A program made the translations under genes and the position numbers. A stretch of DNA of 64,000 nucleotides, from IMG/VR virus record IMGVR_UViG_3300031857_000094, positions 1 through 64,000 of that record; one strand, given 5' to 3'. The notes under the pieces are model-generated. The model was not told the DNA's origin. It saw only the letters and a program-made list of their open reading frames with translations, and ran no database searches. This document shows, one piece after another, positions 7,324 through 56,431 of this stretch. The stretch is from a virus. How positions within the stretch are numbered: position 1 is the first letter of the stretch; each line of letters opens with the position of its first letter.

Positions 7324-8067
7324 TTATCCGATCATGTCAGTAACAGGCAGCGAGTAACTGTTAATTACTTCGTTGTCTAGCTTCTCGATTTCTTCGCGAG
7401 CCTCGTCCCAAATTTTCTGACCGTTGAATGTCAATCCACCTGGAAGATTCATACCCTCGAACTTCTTAAGATTTTCACCCCACTGACGCTTAACGAGAGC
7501 AGTCGCATACTGCTTAAGCCACGGATCATTCCATACATCGGTATATACGTCTGGGTCAACTGTGCGATAGCAGTCGATGATGATATACTGTCCGACCTGA
7601 ACGTCTTCGTCCCATTTCATGTCAATATGGAGCTTATCCATATGACGATTGAAACGGATTGGCTTTTTACCTACGAATACTTCTTCAAGGAACTCGATGT
7701 GACGCATCGCAACAACGTATGGCGTTACCGATACGCTGGAAATGTTGAACAGTTCGTTGAGGTGAAGCTGATAGCGGATATTGAACAGATTCATAGCATT
7801 GTATGAATCGTTGATATCAAAAATACGAGTTACGCCAATAATCCCTTCTGGGAGCGTCACATACTTATTGACGCGATCTTCAGCTGTAACTTGATATGGA
7901 AGATATACATGCTCTGTACCGTCGTAGTGATAATCACGGAACTTGAGCAGAGCGTCGTCGATACGATCTTCAACCTGCTCATCATCGACGTTGATATCAA
8001 TAACTGGTGCACCTAAACGGCGTAAAATGTAGTCTTTAAATTGTTGTCTAGACGAAGTTGCGGCCAT
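7324..8067 (-). CDS. gp13: Neck protein gp13
   Basis: This 247-residue head-completion/neck protein (T4 gp13 is 309) begins MAATSSRQQFKDYILRRLG and continues with the conserved DDALLKFRDYHYDGTEH near residues 37-53. In T4 the gene lies after gp12 and wac. Here the accessory block ending with an adenylate cyclase is directly upstream, 34 bases away. A late box at 8095-8102 gives it its own promoter, so it need not depend on read-through from the cyclase. Confidence 0.92.
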   Translation of the reverse strand: MAATSSRQQFKDYILRRLGAPVIDINVDDEQVEDRIDDALLKFRDYHYDGTEHVYLPYQVTAEDRVNKYVTLPEGIIGVTRIFDINDSYNAMNLFNIRYQLHLNELFNISSVSVTPYVVAMRHIEFLEEVFVGKKPIRFNRHMDKLHIDMKWDEDVQVGQYIIIDCYRTVDPDVYTDVWNDPWLKQYATALVKRQWGENLKKFEGMNLPGGLTFNGQKIWDEAREEIEKLDNEVINSYSLPVTDMIG

Positions 8068-8094
8068 TGAGGAAGCTCCATTGAATACTTCCCC

Positions 8095-8102
8095 TATTTA
8101 TT
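8095..8102 (-). promoter_or_regulatory. Late promoter box for gp13-gp17
   Basis: The minus strand reads AATAAATA (GAATAAATA in context), close to the T4 late box. It lies 28 bases before the gp13 ATG and runs to the last base of the cyclase gene. The same GAATAAATA string occurs before gp25 and before the 92-residue membrane protein, which supports it as this phage's own late-box variant. Confidence 0.65.
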
Positions 8103-10165
8103 CATTTTGATGTGGCGCGATATACTCCATCCCAGTTTTTGGGTATATCAGCGTTTCGTAGCTCCTCAATGCGCTCCTCCATCATTCCATAATATTCAGT
8201 GAGTTCGCCTTTAAACGCATTTCGCAACACTTTGATATACTGTAATGCGTTATCCCAGTTTTGATAGCGATACTGTTTAATGAAGTCTCTATGAGTTTTT
8301 AGATATGTGTGATCAACTCCTGTCCCATTGACAATCGTAAAGATACGGACTCCTTTCGATTTACCTTTTACAGCGATGCAGTCTAGCTCTGCTAGTGGAT
8401 ATGCTCCGTCAAGCAGTTCTGCTGTGCGCTCACCGATGATAATACGAACGTGATACGGTTTGCTCTGTCCCTCTAACCGCGAAGCCAAGTTGACAGAATC
8501 CCCCAAACAGGTATAATCAAATCTTTGACTGGAACCCATATTGCCAACGACAACATCACCAGAATTGATACCGAGACCCATACCAAAAGGAGGAACTCCT
8601 TCAGGCGCGATAGAAGCGTTAAAAGCATCGAGATCATCGAGCATTGCGAGACCCGTGCGAACTGCGTTTTTAGCGTGTTCGCGATCATCCAAAGGCGCGT
8701 TCCAGAAAGCCATCTGCGCATCGCCGATATACTTGTCGAGTGTTCCATTGTTTTCTAAAATCCTTGCAGTCATCGCTGTCATGTAGCGATTCATTATCTG
8801 AGTAAGACCTTGAACGTCAGATCCATAATGCTCACTAATAGAAGTGAAGCCGCGCACATCAGTAAACATAATTGAAAGTTCACGAGTTTCTCCTCCTAGG
8901 CGTAGTAGCTCAGGATTCTTCTGTAACTTTTCAACAAGAGCTGGTGAAAGATATGTACCAAACTGCTTTTTGATTTGCAGCTTCAATCTATTCTCGCGCG
9001 CGAAGTTGTTATATACTAAGTGACCAAAGCTGAAAGTGCCTGCCAACAATAAATAACTAGCATCCCACAGCTGCATGTGTTCTTTGAACATGTAGTAAGA
9101 ACCATATGCGGAGGATCCAACGAATGCTAGATATAATGGCACTGTCAATGAAACAGATGTTCTTGGTACAAGAAAGAGCAATAATCCTAGCATTACAGAC
9201 AGAACGAGCAATTCAAGAGTCTTCGCGAAAGGCAGTCGGGTTATACTTGATCCATCTATCAAAGTTTGCAATGCAGCAGCTTGAACTTCATGGCTCCACT
9301 TTTCACCCAACGGCGTGCCGATAATCCCACCAACGCCTTCAATCGTTAATCCTAAGACAACAATTTTTCCTTCGACTTTATCTTTTGTAGCTTCTGTTGC
9401 ATCGACGCGCTCGAAGTTATTGTTCCATGTTGTCCAGATGCGACCACGCTCGTCTGTGGAGATTGCGGGGAACTGCGGGATGCGGACTGCTTCGACACCT
9501 GCTTGACCTGTTTTGATTTGGTAAGATGGATCTCCAGCCACTGCTCGTAGGGTTTCCAATACAAGTGAAGGATACAGTGTATCCCCAATCCTAACCAGCA
9601 TAGGCAAGCGACGAACAACCCCATCACGCTCAGGTGTTGCAGCGAGAACCCCAACCCCTTCGGCAACGTCAGCGAAAGATCGTAGAGGAGATATAGCCCC
9701 AGGCCAAGAATAGACCCATGAATTAGGGTCATCACCGATACTAGCGAAGCCTCTGCGAACAGCATCTGGCGCTCTTCGCTGAGCTGTTGGTGTTTGCGAT
9801 ATAACGACACCACCAGCCGCAATAGATTTTGCCAAATCGGCATCGCCACCAGCGCGATCTTTTTCACTAAAAAGAATAGGAACGACGATAGCTGCAGCGC
9901 CAGCAGCACGAAGACGTTCAATAGTCGCAGCGATGTCTCGACGGTCGAATGGCCATTGACCGTATTCCTGAACTGACTTTTCGCCGAACTCAACCAGAAC
10001 AACTTCATCGGACTTCTTTTGCTCCAAAGATGTTATGAAGTAGTCAAAAGTTTTCAGTTGTAAAGTTTCAATGGGAGATGGATTCAATATGAACAGGATG
10101 ACAAGCATCAAAGCTGATGCGATAGCCGCCCACGTCGAAGTGAGATATTTGCCAAACGTTTCCAT
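8102..10165 (-). CDS. CHASE2-domain class III adenylate cyclase
   Basis: This 687-residue membrane protein is predicted to make cAMP from ATP. An N-terminal membrane helix (about 11-29) leads into a periplasmic CHASE2 sensor (about 35-305), then three membrane helices (about 315-335, 339-358, 366-386) and a cytoplasmic class III cyclase domain (about 425-610). The catalytic set looks complete: metal aspartates D436 (MFTDVRGFTS) and D482 (YIGDAQMAF), ATP-selecting K478 and D550 (FDYTCLGDS), and transition-state N559 and R563 (VNLASRLE). The tail after 615 is helical. Such proteins are normally bacterial chromosomal sensors, often beside FecR-like genes. Here it is the last gene of a phage block with a FecR-like protein and curli-type proteins, just before gp13. 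The substrate is inferred from these residues. Confidence 0.9.
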   Translation of the reverse strand: METFGKYLTSTWAAIASALMLVILFILNPSPIETLQLKTFDYFITSLEQKKSDEVVLVEFGEKSVQEYGQWPFDRRDIAATIERLRAAGAAAIVVPILFSEKDRAGGDADLAKSIAAGGVVISQTPTAQRRAPDAVRRGFASIGDDPNSWVYSWPGAISPLRSFADVAEGVGVLAATPERDGVVRRLPMLVRIGDTLYPSLVLETLRAVAGDPSYQIKTGQAGVEAVRIPQFPAISTDERGRIWTTWNNNFERVDATEATKDKVEGKIVVLGLTIEGVGGIIGTPLGEKWSHEVQAAALQTLIDGSSITRLPFAKTLELLVLSVMLGLLLFLVPRTSVSLTVPLYLAFVGSSAYGSYYMFKEHMQLWDASYLLLAGTFSFGHLVYNNFARENRLKLQIKKQFGTYLSPALVEKLQKNPELLRLGGETRELSIMFTDVRGFTSISEHYGSDVQGLTQIMNRYMTAMTARILENNGTLDKYIGDAQMAFWNAPLDDREHAKNAVRTGLAMLDDLDAFNASIAPEGVPPFGMGLGINSGDVVVGNMGSSQRFDYTCLGDSVNLASRLEGQSKPYHVRIIIGERTAELLDGAYPLAELDCIAVKGKSKGVRIFTIVNGTGVDHTYLKTHRDFIKQYRYQNWDNALQYIKVLRNAFKGELTEYYGMMEERIEELRNADIPKNWDGVYRATSK

Positions 10166-10167
10166 GA

Positions 10168-10431
10168 TCAGTATTGATTGACGATATAAGGAGAAGAAGG
10201 GCAGCTACTGTAACAAGAAACGCTAAGGCTGAAAGACTGTGGAGTATTTCCTGACTGCGTGACCGAGACGCTGATGCCGTCGCCCGCCAATTGTAAATTA
10301 GCAGAATGACCAACAGCAGACTGAGTGATAGTAACATTTTGTGTTGATCCTATAATATTGACTGTTGCGTTGTTAACCTGTTGTGCGTTAGCAGAAACGG
10401 TCAGTAACAATAGAGCTGCTAATACTTTCAT
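10168..10431 (-). CDS. Small curlin-repeat-like secreted protein
   Basis: This 87-residue protein has a signal peptide (MKVLAALLLLTVSANA, likely cut before QQ). It then has two or three short repeats of the curlin type, Asn-x-x-x-Ile-x-Gln-x-Gly: NVTITQSAVGHSANLQL and ISVSVTQSGNTPQSFSL. Curlin repeats form stacked beta-strands in amyloid fibre subunits such as CsgA and CsgB. The C-terminal tail has two cysteines (SCYSSCPSS), unusual for curlin. It lies two bases after the cyclase start and one base before the FecR-like gene end, within the csgF-csgG block. A nucleator-like minor subunit is possible; this is inference from repeats and context. Confidence 0.65.
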   Translation of the reverse strand: MKVLAALLLLTVSANAQQVNNATVNIIGSTQNVTITQSAVGHSANLQLAGDGISVSVTQSGNTPQSFSLSVSCYSSCPSSPYIVNQY

Positions 10432-10432
10432 A

Positions 10433-11539
10433 TCAGTTCCCCTGCTTGATGGTGATAGTCGTAGTTCCTGCGCTGTTTACCATCTGTGTAATCTCGACAC
10501 CATCTTGTGTTAGTTTCATAGTCATGCTTTGGCTAATCGGAACTGTAACCTGAGCATACGCATTGAAGGATTCGCGATACAAGGTAACGAAATCATCTTC
10601 AACAAAGTATTTGAGCCCCGTTGCTGCATTGTATTTAGGCAAAAGTGCGTTGAATTCTGCAAGCTCATTTGTCAACATCTGCGAGCTGGAAAGATCCAAA
10701 AGATTGATAAGGAAGTCGCTGTCAAGGAAGTTGCGATCTAGTTTGTTGTATTCGGTCAGATAGTTCTTATCTAGTTCGGTATACTTTAGCAAATCTTTAC
10801 CAAGCAAATCTTCGTCGAGATAGTTATAGCCTTTAGCTTCTGTATGAACTTCTACGGTTGCAGATTTTGGCGGAGTAACAATCAAAAGATTATTGATTTG
10901 ATCCAAACTCAAATTCATGATACTTGATCTAGGAGTATTCATGCTTGTTTGAACGTTGACCGTTTCAAATGGTTTAGTTAGAATAACAGTTCCCATATCC
11001 GTTGTTACGGAAATAGATCCAGTGATACAATCGCGTTCTATGTTTTTCCAACCAGTAGGGCAAGAAGGTAGAAGAATAATAGTAGAACGACCAATCTCAT
11101 CAACTGTCCCAGAAAAGTCGGTGCCACGAACTCCAATAGTAGCAGTCGGAGTTTCCACCATAACTTGTTGCGGGTCGCTCTTCGCGATCTGTCCTGAAGC
11201 ATATTTGATTGTCCCCAATGCCATCTTCATTCCGAGCTTGCCAGTTTTTTTACTGTCATCGTAAACGAAGTTGTCGATTACTAATCTAGAATGCTCAGTA
11301 ATTTGAACTCGTGTATCATCTCTGAACGTGATTCCAGCGCGACCATTCGCGGTTGTAATAGTATCCTGCATCTCAACACCAGTATCTTTGGCGCTGGGAA
11401 TCACGTTCGTATTGCGTTTTATTTCAGCTGGTCCTGTTAACTCTGTTACTTTTCCAATATCAGCATTACTGATGGTTGGACTTGATAGTAAGAGTATTGC
11501 CAGAGCCAGTGATTGTAGAAATGACCTTAGAGTCAACAC
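10433..11539 (-). CDS. FecR-domain periplasmic protein
   Basis: This 368-residue exported protein probably starts at a GTG (11539), since its signal peptide (LTLRSFLQSLALAILLLSS, cut near SNA) lies in the overlap with the curlin gene. The FecR domain spans about residues 55-145, with typical GRAGITFRDDTRVQITEHS and TPTATIGVRGTDFS. FecR domains sense or transmit envelope signals, and bacterial FecR-like proteins often neighbour CHASE2 cyclases. The C-terminal 200 residues are unassigned and rich in Leu, Asp and Asn. The first 74 bases overlap the 3' end of the curlin-like gene in another frame. AAGG lies a few bases before the GTG. It may be the periplasmic partner of the cyclase's CHASE2 domain; that is inference. 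Confidence 0.82.
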   Translation of the reverse strand: MLTLRSFLQSLALAILLLSSPTISNADIGKVTELTGPAEIKRNTNVIPSAKDTGVEMQDTITTANGRAGITFRDDTRVQITEHSRLVIDNFVYDDSKKTGKLGMKMALGTIKYASGQIAKSDPQQVMVETPTATIGVRGTDFSGTVDEIGRSTIILLPSCPTGWKNIERDCITGSISVTTDMGTVILTKPFETVNVQTSMNTPRSSIMNLSLDQINNLLIVTPPKSATVEVHTEAKGYNYLDEDLLGKDLLKYTELDKNYLTEYNKLDRNFLDSDFLINLLDLSSSQMLTNELAEFNALLPKYNAATGLKYFVEDDFVTLYRESFNAYAQVTVPISQSMTMKLTQDGVEITQMVNSAGTTTITIKQGN

Positions 11540-12143
11540 CGCCGCCTTGCTTGATATCTACTGTGTTTGTTGCACCTAAGATATTCACGTCAGCGTCGTG
11601 ACCGTTTGTGCCAGCAGCACCAGTCTGAATAATGTTAACATCGTTTCCACCACCGCCAGCGATAAGAACAGTGCTCTTAGCTCCAGCAACAGCAGTCGAA
11701 TCATTTTGAATGTTTACAGTATTGTTATCAGTATTGATTGTAACATTGGAAATCGTAAGACCATCAGCTGATTGAGTTACAGTGTTTCCATCACCAGTAA
11801 TCGTGTTATTGATTATAGAGCTTGTACAAGTTCCGCTTACACCGCAAGCGATGTTCACAGTATTATTATCACCTGTTACAAGCGAGTTCACTTGTACGTC
11901 ATCACCCTGCACATTAATTGCAGTGATGTTAGAGTTACCGATCTGGTCAATAGTTACAATATTGTTTTGACCGTTGATTATAGCCTTATCGGTAGGATTG
12001 CCAATCGCATTCGAATTGCCTGTTTGAGTCATAGAAATTGTAGAGCCACTACCGATTTGGTCTACATACACACTATTTCCCGCGGCGTTTGCATATTGAA
12101 ACATAACCAAGAATGACAACAGTGTCATACTTGAGAGTTTCAT
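11466..12143 (-). CDS. Curlin-repeat-like fibre protein
   Basis: This 225-residue exported protein has a signal peptide ending near YANAA, followed by many Asn-rich repeats of curlin type (VYVDQIGSGSTISMTQTG, NIVTIDQIGNSN, NNTVNI repeated). Spacing is close to 20-23 residues in the first part, as in CsgA/CsgB. The later repeats are looser, with DNNTVNI and GSGNTLTI units. One Cys pair occurs in the middle (ACGVSGTC). It lies six bases after csgG, and its 3' end overlaps the FecR-like gene. It is a likely substrate for the CsgG pore, so a phage-encoded extracellular amyloid-like fibre subunit is the leading reading. A solenoid receptor-binding protein would be the alternative. Confidence 0.78.
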   Translation of the reverse strand: MKLSSMTLLSFLVMFQYANAAGNSVYVDQIGSGSTISMTQTGNSNAIGNPTDKAIINGQNNIVTIDQIGNSNITAINVQGDDVQVNSLVTGDNNTVNIACGVSGTCTSSIINNTITGDGNTVTQSADGLTISNVTINTDNNTVNIQNDSTAVAGAKSTVLIAGGGGNDVNIIQTGAAGTNGHDADVNILGATNTVDIKQGGGVDSKVISTITGSGNTLTIKSNHQ

Positions 12144-12148
12144 TCCTT

Positions 12149-12952
12149 TTACCTCTTCTTGATACTCCAGAGCTTTTTCTTAGCTCCCTCCTTAATCATA
12201 TCAGCAACTGCTGCTTCAATAGCTATTCTTACAGCGTATGTCGTAGGTTCGTTCACAGAGTTACCAGCTTCAAACTCAACGGACTTAGTGCCCACATCAA
12301 TAAACTTGAATACGTTTGCGCCAGCGCCTGTGCTCAATACAGTTTTAGATGCTCCAGTCGATAATAGAACTTCACCAGTGTTGATAGAAATCAAACGTAG
12401 CACAACAGTCACTTCGTCTTTTCTATATTCCTGATTAGCGCCAACTCCTAAGAAGCGAGCACCAATACCACCAGTTCCGATATTACTATCATATCCGACA
12501 ACTCCGCCATCCAACATAATCCCAGCAACAGTCAATGGAGTTAGTGGCTTTGCTTGATCCTTTTCGTAAAGCTCGCGCTGACTGCGAATCAGCTGACGTT
12601 CCTTTACAAGATTATCAAGCGCACTACGCTCTACAACCTGAAACCATTTACCGCGACCAGCGTCTTGTAGTGCTTTGATTAGAAACACTTCTGAACCTTG
12701 TGTCACAGCAGAACTCAAACTAGCGAAGTTCGCTGCTGGCTTACGCTGTCCTGTTAGATCAGGAAAACGATATACAGCAATTGGAATGACTGGACCATCT
12801 ACTCCAGGCAAATTCACTAGCTCGTTGAACCGCTTCGTCGTAATAACTTCAGGAGCTTCCGCTCGGGCTTCAATAGATTCTTTTGTTACCGACTCAGCTG
12901 TGCAACCAGCCAACAGTATAGTAGCAAGAATCATACCAAATATCTTTACCAT
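12149..12952 (-). CDS. csgG: CsgG-type curli secretion lipoprotein
   Basis: This 267-residue lipoprotein (E. coli CsgG is 277) forms the nonameric outer-membrane pore of the type VIII (curli) secretion route. The lipobox is LLAGC with Cys16. Family segments are VPIAVYRFPDLTGQRKP, VVERSALDNLVKERQLIR, the strand GGVVGYDSNIGTGGIGARF and a closing GAKKKLWSIKKR. The constriction loop keeps the Asn-Phe pair (PAANF) but appears two residues shorter than in E. coli and lacks the Tyr that helps form the narrow ring there. It overlaps csgF by seven bases. No csgE-like gene is seen in the window. Confidence 0.92.
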   Translation of the reverse strand: MVKIFGMILATILLAGCTAESVTKESIEARAEAPEVITTKRFNELVNLPGVDGPVIPIAVYRFPDLTGQRKPAANFASLSSAVTQGSEVFLIKALQDAGRGKWFQVVERSALDNLVKERQLIRSQRELYEKDQAKPLTPLTVAGIMLDGGVVGYDSNIGTGGIGARFLGVGANQEYRKDEVTVVLRLISINTGEVLLSTGASKTVLSTGAGANVFKFIDVGTKSVEFEAGNSVNEPTTYAVRIAIEAAVADMIKEGAKKKLWSIKKR

Positions 12953-13386
12953 GCTAAACTCCCATAAGGAACAACAACTTCAGTGACGCTACCGCCAGCG
13001 TCTGTAATTCTTAATGTGATTTGTGATCCATCAGATGACCATTGAACATTGTTTGATGCGATATCAAACGATCCACTCGTATTACCATTATCAGAAAACA
13101 ATTGCTCCGCAATTTTTTGCGATAAAGTCGCGTACACGCGCGACTCTAAGTTGTTTAGAAACTTCGCAAGGTTAGTATTTTTTGCAGCCGCAGCTTCAGC
13201 AGCTGCTTGAGCTTTTTTATCTTCGGCAATTTTTTGACGGCGTGATGCTTCTAAGTTATCAATCGTCAAAACGTGAGCAGAGTAACCAATGCCGCTGAAC
13301 GATGGACTTTTATATTGAAATTGAATTTCACTTGCTAGCGTCTGGCTGCTTATCAGTAGCAGCGTTGTTGCCATTAGAATGCGCAT
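12946..13386 (-). CDS. csgF: CsgF-type curli assembly protein
   Basis: This 146-residue exported protein (E. coli CsgF is 138) has a signal peptide MRILMATTLLLISSQTLA. The mature N-terminus SEIQFQYKSPSFSGIGYSA matches the segment by which CsgF plugs into the CsgG channel. An Ala/Lys-rich helix follows (about residues 50-72), then a small beta-rich C-terminal domain (SQITLRITDAGGSVTEVVVP). In bacteria CsgF couples secretion through CsgG to nucleation of the curli fibre at the cell surface. It overlaps csgG by seven bases and the upstream membrane-protein gene by 59 bases. Confidence 0.88.
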   Translation of the reverse strand: MRILMATTLLLISSQTLASEIQFQYKSPSFSGIGYSAHVLTIDNLEASRRQKIAEDKKAQAAAEAAAAKNTNLAKFLNNLESRVYATLSQKIAEQLFSDNGNTSGSFDIASNNVQWSSDGSQITLRITDAGGSVTEVVVPYGSLAW

Positions 13387-13633
13387 CTTTCATCTCCTCG
13401 ATTTCTTTGCCTCTTAGCGTCAGAACTACGTTGACCTTTTGATTCAATCGAATTAGGTCATTATCGAGCATACGGATACGATCAATCAACGCAATTAGAA
13501 CTGTGTTAGCTTCAGAAAGAACTGGCTTGATTTCTTGAGTAGCCCACTTCCAAACGTAGAAGATAAGATAGCCCATGCCGCCAGCAGCGACGATAGGAAA
13601 GCCATACTTATTGATCAGTGATACTACGTCCAT
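13328..13633 (-). CDS. Small single-span membrane protein, holin-like (paralogue 1)
   Basis: This 101-residue protein has one N-terminal membrane span (about residues 10-30, GFPIVAAGGMGYLIFYVWKW) and a charged helical tail with LIDRIRMLDNDLIRLNQK. The layout resembles small holin-like proteins of the BhlA/UviB kind, but no specific family can be proven by eye. It shares KYGFPI, GY-IF and the D-R---D-IR- pattern with the next gene upstream, so the two look like tandem duplicates. Its 3' end overlaps the csgF signal-peptide coding region by 59 bases. A role in lysis, or in anchoring the curli-type machinery, is possible. Confidence 0.6.
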   Translation of the reverse strand: MDVVSLINKYGFPIVAAGGMGYLIFYVWKWATQEIKPVLSEANTVLIALIDRIRMLDNDLIRLNQKVNVVLTLRGKEIEEMKDAHSNGNNAATDKQPDASK

Positions 13634-13911
13634 CAGTCTCTCCTTGCGTCGTTTTTGCCATCAGCTCTTGCGATACGATCTACGTCTGGCTTTACGCCAA
13701 GAGCATTTGACACAAGAGTGTCGACGCGAATGACGTCGTGATTCATAGTCTTCACGCGATTGTCAAGAGCCGTAATAATGTTGCTCATACCCTTGACACT
13801 TGACATAACACCAGCTAGAATAAACTTGAGCGTCAAAAAGACGAAATATCCGCCAGCAAGGGCTGATGCAATAGGAAAGCCCACTTCAGCAACCAGCTTA
13901 AAAAAGTCCAT
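13633..13911 (-). CDS. Small single-span membrane protein, holin-like (paralogue 2)
   Basis: This 92-residue protein has an N-terminal hydrophobic span (VGFPIASALAGGYFVFLTLK, about residues 10-30) and an amphipathic tail (ITALDNRVKTMNHDVIRVD). It is similar in layout and motif to the next gene (101 residues), which it overlaps by one base. It is the first gene of the minus-strand curli/cyclase block and has a late box 24 bases upstream. An oppositely directed promoter (13793-13821) lies inside its coding sequence. The holin-like label is a guess from size and topology. Confidence 0.6.
   Translation of the reverse strand: MDFFKLVAEVGFPIASALAGGYFVFLTLKFILAGVMSSVKGMSNIITALDNRVKTMNHDVIRVDTLVSNALGVKPDVDRIARADGKNDARRD
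13793..13821 (+). promoter_or_regulatory. Sigma70-like promoter for the plus-strand TctC/oxygenase cassette
   Basis: The plus strand has TTGACA at 13793-13798, then exactly 17 bases, then TAGAAT at 13816-13821. The same hexamer pair is found before the tmRNA. It lies inside the opposing membrane-protein gene, about 140 bases before the TctC-like ATG. Transcription would therefore run antisense to the start of the curli/cyclase operon and cross its late promoter. Confidence 0.7.
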
Positions 13912-13934
13912 AACACATCCTTTCAGTTTTACAC

Positions 13935-13942
13935 TATTTATT
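13935..13942 (-). promoter_or_regulatory. Late promoter box for the curli/cyclase block
   Basis: The minus strand reads AATAAATA in GAATAAATA context, 24 bases before the ATG of the 92-residue membrane protein. The same string precedes gp13 and gp25. It implies that the membrane proteins, csgF, csgG, curlin-like, FecR-like and cyclase genes are expressed late, together with virion genes. Confidence 0.62.
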
Positions 13943-13962
13943 CAGGAGTGCTATATAATAGT

Positions 13963-14937
13963 ATGCTTAGATCATTAGTTTTCTTCCTGACGCTGTCTGC
14001 GAGCGCGATGGCTCAGGAATTAAGAGTTATCACTCCTTCTCCTGCAGATAGTTACAATATCAACGCTAGAATCCTGGCTCCGTATATGGCAAAGTATCTG
14101 CTTGAGAAGCCAACTCCTGTAATTCAAGTGATGCCTGGAGCTTCGAGTTTGGTCGCTACGAATTACATGTACAACGTGGCTCCTAAAGACGGGAACACAA
14201 TCGCGACCGTTTATAAAAACATTCCGCTTGTAGGTATTCTCGGTGGCCCTACTGTTATGTTCGATCCAACGAAGTTCAATTGGATTGGCTCGACTGTTGA
14301 TGGTCGTAAAGATGCAGTCTTAGTATGGACACATCGCAAAGAATCACTCACAGAGTTTAAAACTAAGGAACTCATTGTCGGAACAGAAAGTATCGTTTCC
14401 GCAGACTCTACAAAGTTCATTCGAAACTCGCTCGGACTAAACTTCAAGCAGATCGCTGGTTACGCTAATCCAGGCGCTGCGCGACTAGCTCTTGAACGCA
14501 AAGAAGTCGATGCTGTTATTTTTAATTTGCTTGGGATCAAAACACAAACACAATGGACTGATCCAAATAGCGGCATCCGCGCATTGCTACAGTTTGGTAA
14601 CGGTAAGATTCGCCATCCAGATTTCAAAAACGTTCCAACATTCGCAGAGCTTATTACGAACGAAGATGATAAGGCTATTCTTGATATCTTCGAAACACAG
14701 TTTATCCTACTGAGACCATTCATCGCTCCACCTGGAGTTCCTGCTGCTAGAGTAAAAGAACTTCGCGAAGCGTTCAACAAAGCTGTCAACGATGTCGGAT
14801 ACATAGAAGAAGCGACTAAGGCTAGAATGGAAATACAGCTGATCACAGGTGAGCAGGCTGAGCATATTGTAGCTGTTTCATCGAATGCTTCTCAAGCAGT
14901 TTTAGATAAACTTAGAAACCTTCAGAGTGAAAAATGA
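13963..14937 (+). CDS. TctC/Bug-family periplasmic solute-binding protein (copy 1)
   Basis: This 324-residue exported protein has signal peptide MLRSLVFFLTLSASAMAQ. The mature part has the two-lobe TctC pattern: RVITPSPADSYNINAR early, IQVMPGASSLVATNYMYNV, GILGGPTVMFDPTKFNWIGS, and the late APPGVPAARVKELREAFNKA. These proteins feed tripartite tricarboxylate (TTT) transporters or act as periplasmic sensors. No TctA or TctB membrane component is encoded nearby, so it would have to use a host transporter or work alone. An in-frame GTG five codons earlier (13948) is less likely, since the signal peptide begins at this ATG. It overlaps the following oxygenase by four bases. Confidence 0.86.
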   Translation: MLRSLVFFLTLSASAMAQELRVITPSPADSYNINARILAPYMAKYLLEKPTPVIQVMPGASSLVATNYMYNVAPKDGNTIATVYKNIPLVGILGGPTVMFDPTKFNWIGSTVDGRKDAVLVWTHRKESLTEFKTKELIVGTESIVSADSTKFIRNSLGLNFKQIAGYANPGAARLALERKEVDAVIFNLLGIKTQTQWTDPNSGIRALLQFGNGKIRHPDFKNVPTFAELITNEDDKAILDIFETQFILLRPFIAPPGVPAARVKELREAFNKAVNDVGYIEEATKARMEIQLITGEQAEHIVAVSSNASQAVLDKLRNLQSEK

Positions 14938-15617
14938 TTGAACATGCACTATTCCCCACGCTAGTCTGTGAGTTTCACTATAATAAGAAGGATGAGTTCA
15001 AGCAGCTCTTCTATCAAAAGATCTTTGACTATATGACCCCAGAGGGATACTCAAACGAGTTCACTGGTCACGTCAATATCCATCACGAAGAATCGTTCGC
15101 TCCATTTTTCGCATACGCAATTAACTGTGCTAAACAGTATGCTGCACGTTTGCATATCGACACGAATAAGTTCGAGTTCAATCTAGTCAAGACGTGGATG
15201 AACATTAAGAAAGATGACTCGACGCCATATCACGCGCACGGGGATGCGCACATTTCGTTCACTTATTATGTGAACGTTCCATCAACGTTTGTTCGACCTA
15301 TTCGCTTTCATAATCATGAGCGCAGGCACGAACCATATCCTGGCTCTATCCGCTGGAATAACACAAGCGATACTTGGGATTGGTTGAACGCATACACTTG
15401 GCAGTTTGAACCAGTCGAGGGACAGCTGCTAGTATTCCCTTCGACGCTTCCTCATGATACTATTGGTCAGACAAATGGTGAAGATAAAGGTAATCCGACT
15501 GTAGAAGAGCTAAACGAAAATCGTATTTGTCTTGCAGCCGATATCCTTCTCACATACAAAGATAAGACCGCAAGTCCACTTGGTGTCCAACCAGTTAGCA
15601 ATTGGAGACAGTTTTGA
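14934..15617 (+). CDS. 2OG-Fe(II) oxygenase-like protein
   Basis: This 227-residue protein resembles the phage/marine 2-oxoglutarate Fe(II) oxygenase group that begins with a short ALFPTLVCEF strand. The iron site is readable as H102-x-D104 (YHAHGDAHISF) and H174 (FPSTLPHDT). A basic residue for 2-oxoglutarate binding should follow H174 but cannot be pinned down. Members hydroxylate amino acids, proteins or small molecules; the substrate here is unknown. It overlaps the TctC gene by four bases (ATGA) and the next oxygenase by four bases at its stop, so the three form one plus-strand operon. Confidence 0.75.
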   Translation: MIEHALFPTLVCEFHYNKKDEFKQLFYQKIFDYMTPEGYSNEFTGHVNIHHEESFAPFFAYAINCAKQYAARLHIDTNKFEFNLVKTWMNIKKDDSTPYHAHGDAHISFTYYVNVPSTFVRPIRFHNHERRHEPYPGSIRWNNTSDTWDWLNAYTWQFEPVEGQLLVFPSTLPHDTIGQTNGEDKGNPTVEELNENRICLAADILLTYKDKTASPLGVQPVSNWRQF

Positions 15618-16225
15618 GCTATACTACAATCTACAATAATCCTTGGCAGAGATCACAAATCACTTATCCATTCGTTACATGGGATAATGGATTTACAGAA
15701 GAAGAGCTTAATGCTATTATTGAATACTGCGACTCGAACGGGACTGAACTTGGTACTACGTTTGGCGCATCTTCAGAAGAAGAAATTAAAGCACATCGCG
15801 TATCAAACGTAAAGTTTCATGGCAGGAATGAGAACACAGCATGGATATTTGACAAGCTCAACTTTATCATTCAAGCATCAAACGAGCAGTTCTACAACTT
15901 CAACTTGAATGGATATTCTGAGTTTCAATATACAACATACGATCCTAATGGTCGTTATGATTGGCATACAGATATGTCATTCGGTGAAAAGTATGGTAAT
16001 GATGCAGAACCACGCAAACTATCAATGACGCTTTTATTGAATGATGGTTTTGAAGGCGGTGAGTTTCAGATCAACAATGGTAAGCAAGAAACACCAATCA
16101 CAGTAGATATGTTTAAAGGACGGGTTGTTTTGTTCCCGTCCTTTATGATTCATCGTGTGAAACCTGTGACTAAAGGTGTTCGTAAGTCGCTGGTTGTTTG
16201 GGTGCTTGGTCCTAAGTTCGTTTAA
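15614..16225 (+). CDS. PKHD/prolyl-4-hydroxylase-type 2OG-Fe(II) oxygenase
   Basis: This protein is 203 residues if started at TTG 15614, chosen because GGAGA lies at 15604-15608 with good spacing and the TTG overlaps the previous stop (TTTTGA); an in-frame TTG at 15602 would add four residues. The double-stranded beta-helix core is complete: H118-x-D120 in YDWHTDMSF, H180 in SFMIHRVKPV, and R190 ten residues later for 2-oxoglutarate. Related hydroxylases are common in T4-like aquatic phages, and their targets are mostly unknown. A perfect 10-bp inverted repeat lies inside the gene at 16115-16144. It converges with the minus-strand TctC gene, both stops sharing TTAA. Confidence 0.85.
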   Translation: MSYTTIYNNPWQRSQITYPFVTWDNGFTEEELNAIIEYCDSNGTELGTTFGASSEEEIKAHRVSNVKFHGRNENTAWIFDKLNFIIQASNEQFYNFNLNGYSEFQYTTYDPNGRYDWHTDMSFGEKYGNDAEPRKLSMTLLLNDGFEGGEFQINNGKQETPITVDMFKGRVVLFPSFMIHRVKPVTKGVRKSLVVWVLGPKFV

Positions 16226-17142
16226 TCTATATCGAACTCAATACCACGCTCAATAAACATTTTCTTTTCGTCAGCTACGAGTTTCTTAATAGCTCCATCG
16301 TTGATACACATAGGAACATACTTACGATCAGTAATCAGTTTCTTGATATCTGGATCAGCGCACACTCTATCAAAAAGGGATTGAATCTTAGTGATCAGCT
16401 CCTTTTCGCTTTTAAGAATAGCGAATGAAGTGTATGCTCCGAAGTTAAACTCAGGAAATCCAAGTTCTGCTCCTGTAGGTACGTTAGGATATTCTGACAG
16501 TCTTTCGGGGCTCGACATAGCAATAATTTTTAAAGATCCATTTTCAGCCACGTTAGCTGAAGCTGGATTGTTGATCATAAAATCAGCTTCCTTGACTATC
16601 AATGCACGAACACGATCAGGAACGTTCTTATAGTGAACGATCTTAACGTTGTTTCCTAGCTTATACTTGTCGAGGAAAATGTCAGTCAATACTGGTCCGC
16701 CACCACTTGAGTTGATTGAGCCAGCATAAAATCCGTTTCGCGCGCGCATCTGAGCTACGAACTCATCAATCGTATTAGCAGGATTATCTGGACCCACCAT
16801 GAACGCAGCATAGCTTACCATGTGCGACGTTAAGAAGTGAAACTGATCTACTCTGTTATCAGCATTCGTTTTAGGATTAGAAAAGAACGACTGATTACCA
16901 TACAGAATAACGTTGTTTCTTACGGCTAACACTCTCTGATAAGCAGACTCACCCGCAGAGCCAGGGATAGTCATGTATCTAAACTCATAGTCCGACTGAA
17001 TCTGATTCAGCTTGTTCAGAAACTGAACGGCTAACTGTCCAGAAACGTTTGAGTTTGAAATTCTAGAGATAACATCAATTTTTGTTTGTGCGTGTGCAAC
17101 GCTAGAAGCTAATAGTGCAATGATAAAGTAAATCAGTTTCAT
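16222..17142 (-). CDS. TctC/Bug-family periplasmic solute-binding protein (copy 2)
   Basis: This 306-residue exported protein has signal peptide MKLIYFIIALLASSVAHA and TctC-type features: YMTIPGSAGESAYQRV, the serine/glycine ligand loop GSINSSGGGPVLTDIFL, VHYKNVPDRVRALIVKEADF and SEYPNVPTGAELGFPEFN. It differs clearly from the plus-strand copy at 13963-14937, so it is not a recent duplication. It overlaps the upstream PP-loop gene by one base, and a link between its ligand and that enzyme is conceivable. No transporter membrane subunit is in the window. Confidence 0.86.
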   Translation of the reverse strand: MKLIYFIIALLASSVAHAQTKIDVISRISNSNVSGQLAVQFLNKLNQIQSDYEFRYMTIPGSAGESAYQRVLAVRNNVILYGNQSFFSNPKTNADNRVDQFHFLTSHMVSYAAFMVGPDNPANTIDEFVAQMRARNGFYAGSINSSGGGPVLTDIFLDKYKLGNNVKIVHYKNVPDRVRALIVKEADFMINNPASANVAENGSLKIIAMSSPERLSEYPNVPTGAELGFPEFNFGAYTSFAILKSEKELITKIQSLFDRVCADPDIKKLITDRKYVPMCINDGAIKKLVADEKKMFIERGIEFDID

Positions 17143-56109: not shown

Positions 56110-56387
56110 AAGTGGGGGGATTCTGTTTCCAAGCTCCCCCCGAGCTCATTCTTAGGCAGCTAGTGCGTAAGAGATAGGTGCATTATCGTTTGCATCTAAA
56201 ACGCGCTTTTGGTCTCTTCGCATCTTTACTACGCACGTCGATCCTAGTTCACCCCCATCAAAAACAGTAGCATCCAATCCTTACAGCGATGGTTCACATT
56301 GGGCTTCCTACTGCTTATGGTGGAGGCGGCGGGTACTGCCCCCGCGTCCGAAACGTTTATTCCATACGCCTCAACGACCTTAGCATA
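56110..56387 (-). ncRNA. ssrA: Circularly permuted (two-piece) tmRNA
   Basis: tmRNA rescues stalled ribosomes and tags the peptide. The acceptor piece comes first (about 56387-56318): T-stem GCGGG/CCCGC, acceptor strand CGCCTCC, discriminator A and CCA at 56320-56318. The coding piece starts at 56256 with GGGGGTG, which pairs fully with CGCCTCC and gives the G3-U70 pair that alanyl-tRNA synthetase needs. Its tag frame runs from GCA at 56193 to TAA at 56152 and encodes ANDNAPISYALAA. A 7-bp GGGGGGA/TCCCCCC stem follows the tag. The spacer between pieces (56317-56257) must be removed. The T-loop GGCAGTA is not the usual TTC type. The outer ends are approximate. This layout is typical of alphaproteobacterial tmRNA. 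Confidence 0.92.
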
Positions 56388-56393
56388 GTATTT

Positions 56394-56422
56394 ATTCTAG
56401 CTTGCTTTACTCTGATTGTCAA
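56394..56422 (-). promoter_or_regulatory. Sigma70-like promoter of the tmRNA gene
   Basis: The minus strand has TTGACA at 56422-56417, 17 bases, then TAGAAT at 56399-56394, placing the start near 56387. An AATAAATA late-like box overlaps the -10 (56389-56396), so the gene could be read both early and late. Confidence 0.8.
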
Positions 56423-56431
56423 GAACTCATT

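Follow-up and report, generated by a model that had tools for sequence, protein, structure and literature searches.

The 64,000-nt stretch of the virus record IMGVR_UViG_3300031857_000094 (hereafter the window; coordinates are positions within it) contains a block of eight genes at 8102-13911 on the minus strand. They encode, in order, two small proteins (TMa and TMb), CsgF, CsgG, a curlin-repeat protein, a FecR-domain protein, a second curlin-like protein and a CHASE2-adenylate cyclase. The order of these genes is conserved in many phage contigs, and we give an even chance to the reading that they form a late type VIII (curli) secretion module that exports amyloid to the cell surface, is monitored by FecR and CHASE2, and acts on the host through cyclic AMP (cAMP). 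In this scheme, one or two curlin-like subunits encoded by the phage would reach the infected-cell surface through a pore built by CsgG and CsgF in the outer membrane. FecR, itself exported and located either periplasmically or at this pore, would signal the presence of the secreted fibre to CHASE2, the periplasmic domain of the cyclase, and the inner-membrane cyclase would then alter cytoplasmic cAMP, which would act via a host cAMP receptor; TMa and TMb would be near-obligate helical partners, probably in the inner membrane. The outcome would be an altered infected-cell surface (cell aggregation or exclusion of rivals), possibly with host reprogramming or an effect on lysis timing. An amyloid exporter combined with second-messenger synthesis is unusual in phages.

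Gene content and setting of the block

Pfam searches placed the CsgF, CsgG, curlin-repeat, FecR and CHASE2-cyclase genes where an earlier sequence-only reading of the window had put them. The block encodes a CsgG homologue (12149-12952; PF03783, 2.9e-52), the outer-membrane curli pore, with a lipoprotein-type N-terminus (lipobox LLAGC), and its partner CsgF, a pore-associated chaperone with a signal-like N-terminal segment (12946-13386; PF10614, 2.7e-17). The curlin-repeat protein (11466-12143), a candidate major fibre subunit, matches PF07012 (Curlin_rpt) at 8.6e-5 in two stretches, which is above the Pfam cut-off and is as expected of an exported curlin-repeat subunit. The second curlin-like protein (10168-10431; 87 aa, with a C-terminal Cys pair), a candidate minor or tip subunit, scores 0.07, which is below the Pfam cut-off. 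Of the two curlin-repeat-like proteins claimed, the first stands and the second is a weak match, although it belongs to a conserved family found in the same slot in relatives. The remaining named genes encode the FecR-domain protein (10433-11539; PF04773, 1.5e-11) and the cyclase (8102-10165; PF05226, 1.4e-39, and PF00211 (Guanylate_cyc), 4.8e-20). The same reading described a unit of six proteins; all six are there, but the span also holds two paralogues that it did not name, TMa (13633-13911; a 92-aa membrane/coiled-coil protein) and TMb (13328-13633; 101 aa), both assigned to PHROG 18771. Neighbouring genes overlap or almost touch, and both the operon-like unity of the block and its T4-like context were upheld. 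The next gene after the block is gp13 (7324-8067; head-tail adaptor by PHROG), followed by gp14.

Nothing was found in favour of the idea that the block is bacterial DNA chimerically assembled into a phage contig, and we regard it as refuted. The cyclase and gp13 occur together in 24 distinct contigs, with reading frames that abut or slightly overlap in 20 of them, and over 100 independent phage contigs show the same gene order, so that a chimera is ruled out. Sequenced isolates carry the same block (HTVC008M and four Melnitz genomes in INPHARED), the window cyclase groups with other phage copies in one clade apart from cellular ones (support 100), and the GC content of the block equals that of the window (43.6% and 43.5%).

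A late-type promoter box, AATAAATAG, lies upstream of the block at 13934-13942 on the minus strand, and a separate box precedes gp13 at 8094-8102 on the same strand. T4-type late promoters have ATAAATA as their -10 element. Among relatives, 14 of 18 distinct sequences from upstream of the block (before TMa) have this motif at the matching place, and all 21 distinct regions from upstream of gp13 have it as well. Because the 9-mer is not significantly enriched in the window alone (3 seen, 1.6 expected), the promoter call relies on its conservation among relatives. It is thus likely that the block forms a late unit under a promoter of its own, as had been proposed, and that gp13 has another; the claim that the block runs straight into gp13 holds for spacing but not for control. 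The gp13 5' leader also contains a conserved hairpin (8066-8095, minus strand) between the late box and the start codon. It has a GGAG ribosome-binding motif at its edge and both-side changes in 3 of 6 pairs among 14 contigs, and is a possible translational control element.

A block that sits before gp13 and gp14 with late boxes could instead encode virion or tail-fibre parts, with the curlin-like proteins as structural components. We consider this very improbable, as the proteins have N-terminal export signals, the block encodes a dedicated outer-membrane pore, gp13 has a separate promoter, and HTVC008M, Melnitz and many contigs have the block at another genomic position.

Occurrence and relation to known phage modules

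Scans of IMG/VR returned at least 595 relatives of the cyclase and at least 571 of CsgG, and our module counts are based on the approximately 208 distinct contigs that were fetched. The survey of co-occurrence suggested by the sequence-only reading showed that the set is widespread: csgF, csgG, FecR and the cyclase were found together in 116 distinct contigs. All 116 complete modules also contained a curlin gene, and 103 contained both TMa and TMb. Every module gene is under purifying selection, with ratios of nonsynonymous to synonymous substitution rates (dN/dS) of 0.02-0.28 against relatives in the window's own and neighbouring groups.

The full set had looked new, but it had already been published. 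Wittmers et al. (2022; PMC9599517) described CsgF, CsgG, CsgA-B, FecR, a second curlin and the cyclase in myo- and podo-pelagiphages, the same genes are annotated in the Melnitz genomes, and partial reports came earlier (Zaragoza-Solas et al. 2020, PMC7029224; PMC9004378). The pelagiphage module, as in HTVC008M, has CsgF, CsgG, curlin, FecR, second curlin and cyclase in the same order as the window, likewise lacks CsgE and has small genes before csgF. It differs in that the window block lies before gp13 and gp14, and the genes before csgF in the window do not encode kinases. The window phage belongs to a T4-like lineage separate from HTVC008M, with terminase identity of ~56% (also ~56% to cyanophages) and cyclase identity of 39%. 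The Methylophilales phage Melnitz (PMC9004378; MZ577095-98) carries the window's gene set, TMa and TMb among them, at protein identities of 34-64% to the window. What our analysis adds is the recognition of TMa and TMb as near-obligate partners, a clue to the origin of the cyclase pair, the conserved late boxes, the intact cyclase sites and another T4-like lineage. The survey thus gives a conserved eight-gene unit in which the two genes preceding csgF encode near-obligate partners and not kinases.

The small proteins TMa and TMb and a possible role in lysis

TMa and TMb are paralogues of each other and near-obligate partners of the module. In INPHARED, TMa was confined to the 6 records with a csg block, and isolate phages had TMa and TMb only alongside that block. 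Module genes were present in the stretch for 73 of 80 TMa loci in IMG/VR, and where the stretch was at least 19 kb long, csg-module genes lay within 10 kb of TMa in 34 of 34. The location of the pair varies while its company is constant: 45 contigs have it ahead of csgF, 47 have it past the cyclase on the opposite strand, and 7 have the interleaved arrangement TMb-csgF-TMa-csgG. Among relatives of the same wider group (distant isolates excluded), TMa identity is 84-99% where that of the cyclase is 65-98%, and by this comparison TMa is the best-conserved member overall. Both proteins are probably in the inner membrane. For TMb, the predicted structure of which is one long helix, no segment exceeded the simple hydropathy threshold used, and its membrane location is a prediction.

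One or two "histidine kinases" were reported always ahead of csgF in pelagiphages (PMC9599517), and these are probably TMa and TMb. We rejected the kinase label for the pair: neither protein (92-101 aa) had a HATPase_c or HisKA match by Pfam, and no HATPase_c match above the cut-off was found in 17 phage records. Comparison with solved structures gave only chance-level matches for TMa and TMb. TMa was absent from 372 alphaproteobacterial genomes in a search that had no positive control. Contigs without the pair have unrelated small membrane or coiled-coil proteins directly before csgF (for example, L374:4254-4472 and L359:2704-3898), as if this slot required a small membrane protein; a 73-aa membrane protein that takes the place of the pair in some contigs had no match in isolate phages.

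The small proteins are also where a lysis function, already proposed for Melnitz (PMC9004378), can be extended to the whole block. CsgG, with CsgF, would permeabilise the outer membrane late in infection, TMa and TMb would act like holins in the inner membrane, and the time of lysis would be set by cAMP or depolarisation. The late promoter fits this proposal, as do the substitute membrane proteins before csgF and the weak matches of 11 of 14 TMa/TMb-type proteins to the holin family PHROG 4898 (best 1.4e-4). The holin match covers only ~19 residues and is a lead only. CsgF, the curlins and FecR would be superfluous for a bare pore and yet are under purifying selection, and the retention of a curlin in every complete module also speaks against lysis as the purpose of the block, which we think unlikely. 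A GH108-type autolysin, as proposed for Melnitz, was not matched, and the control likewise went unmatched.

FecR, the cyclase and the origin of the pair

The FecR gene has a GTG start at 11539 that overlaps the end of the curlin gene and gives a signal-peptide-like N-terminus, on the basis of which we read the protein as exported. Relatives that we inspected share the hydrophobic N-terminus. A FecR-type anti-sigma regulator, with a cytoplasmic anti-sigma part and an internal transmembrane segment, was considered and rejected, since the only hydrophobic segment is the export signal and the block contains no sigma gene; as judged from its sequence, this is an exported FecR-domain protein. Its structural model matched the periplasmic domains of FecR and PupR (fold match 4m0h/6ovk), with only the N-terminal FecR part being informative.

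In the window cyclase, the metal-binding, base-specifying and transition-state residues (D436, D482, K478, D550, N559 and R563) are all present, so that the active site is intact, and 103 of 106 phage cyclases retain all six. In the Melnitz-group cyclases (L003:8998-11046, L120 and L123), Ser takes the place of both Asp at the base-specifying position and Asn at the transition-state position (D550S, N559S), and these enzymes are perhaps inactive or altered. Sinorhizobium meliloti CyaD1 without its CHASE2 domain makes cAMP constitutively (PMC5498481), which is consistent with CHASE2 acting as a gate on the cyclase.

The nearest cellular cyclases among the matches listed are nearly all alphaproteobacterial, at 32-38% identity. 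Of 66 alphaproteobacterial loci that could be assessed, 22 have a FecR-domain open reading frame that ends no more than 250 bp upstream of the related CHASE2 cyclase, and 32 have FecR within 9 kb. The encoded FecR proteins span ~500-3080 aa, several of those sampled have cadherin, Ig, VWA or RTX domains, and ABC and HlyD (type I) exporters adjoin some sampled loci. Given these adhesin domains and nearby exporters, cells, too, have FecR-CHASE2-cyclase pairs in the company of secreted surface polymers. As in the window, an exported FecR-domain protein adjoins a CHASE2 cyclase, but at these loci FecR forms part of a giant RTX/cadherin/Ig adhesin, and export is of type I rather than type VIII. One sampled locus, from a marine alphaproteobacterium (L208:9965-21230), has a cyclic nucleotide monophosphate (cNMP)-binding protein, unlike the window. 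With its CHASE2 cyclase, DUF1538, HlyD, an ABC exporter and, by profile, a FecR-domain protein, it looks like a complete adhesin-cAMP circuit.

Alphaproteobacterial curli loci share CsgF, CsgG and curlin-type neighbours with the window, but the five that we inspected (~9 kb on each side) contained no FecR, CHASE2 cyclase, TMa or TMb, in agreement with the report that FecR and the cyclase are not members of bacterial curli operons (PMC9599517). On the simplest reading, the curli exporter of the phage module has been joined by a FecR/CHASE2-cyclase pair of the kind that serves type I adhesins elsewhere, and the bacterial FecR-adhesin/CHASE2-cyclase pair is the likely source of its regulatory half. 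The literature we searched contained no description of this bacterial pairing, which is not proof of novelty. A broader and rather doubtful suggestion is that phages brought together a curli exporter and a FecR/CHASE2-cyclase sensor, two cellular devices with no relation to each other, and a phage-specific pair of small membrane proteins in an eight-gene unit that signals fibre placement to the infected cell by cAMP. If true, FecR-CHASE2 logic would be a general reporter of bacterial surface-polymer export.

A role of FecR and CHASE2 in sensing the export of fibres in the phage is plausible and gains indirect support from the bacterial pairing, which also recasts the question of what the cyclase senses as one of binding and activity in ordinary bacteria. 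The S. meliloti CyaD1-Clr-SMc02177 locus resembles the window in that an envelope protein with a FecR domain is encoded close to a CHASE2 cyclase, and differs in encoding the cAMP receptor Clr, with no mention of curli genes (PMC5498481). Expression of SMc02177 is under cAMP/Clr control and the protein is dispensable for the cyclase-activating signal (PMC5498481), which favours FecR as output over input in Sinorhizobium. By analogy, the phage FecR might be a cAMP-controlled output or structural part, such as a fibre anchor or terminator, with the cyclase sensing something else. Its C-terminal tail (...ITQxVNxxGTTTITIKQ) is kept in relatives and ends in a curlin-like, Q-rich strand pattern. This likeness was seen by eye, and a profile search did not show it to be significant (at E<=10, 6 hits were curlins and 9 were unrelated). 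The frequent adjacency of FecR and cyclase in bacteria argues for a direct link; we hold the output or structural role to be improbable.

Several observations count against a fibre exporter coupled to cAMP, in addition to the dispensability of SMc02177. The Pfam matches of the curlin proteins are weak, the second falling below the cut-off. CsgE (PF10627) was not found in the window's own record or in 16 relatives, although the Escherichia coli positive control was matched. This gate occurs in enterobacteria and is not essential to all curli systems. No cNMP-binding protein or cAMP receptor was found in the window's record and 16 larger phage records, and the effector of cAMP must therefore be the host's; CRP-type sites showed no enrichment in the window (2, against 3.2 expected). 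Clumping was sought with phage Melnitz and not seen (PMC9004378); its cyclase lacks the D550 and N559 equivalents that are present in the window's.

Elsewhere in the window, a permuted, phage-coded transfer-messenger RNA of alphaproteobacterial type (56111-56426, minus strand; tag ANDNAPISYALAA) hints at an alphaproteobacterial host. The region upstream of the block is flanked by two genes for TctC-type (PF03401) solute-binding-like proteins, an unusual phage cargo, at 13948-14937 on the plus strand and 16222-17142 on the minus strand. A tandem pair of 2-oxoglutarate-Fe(II) oxygenase-like genes is located at 14934-16225 on the plus strand.

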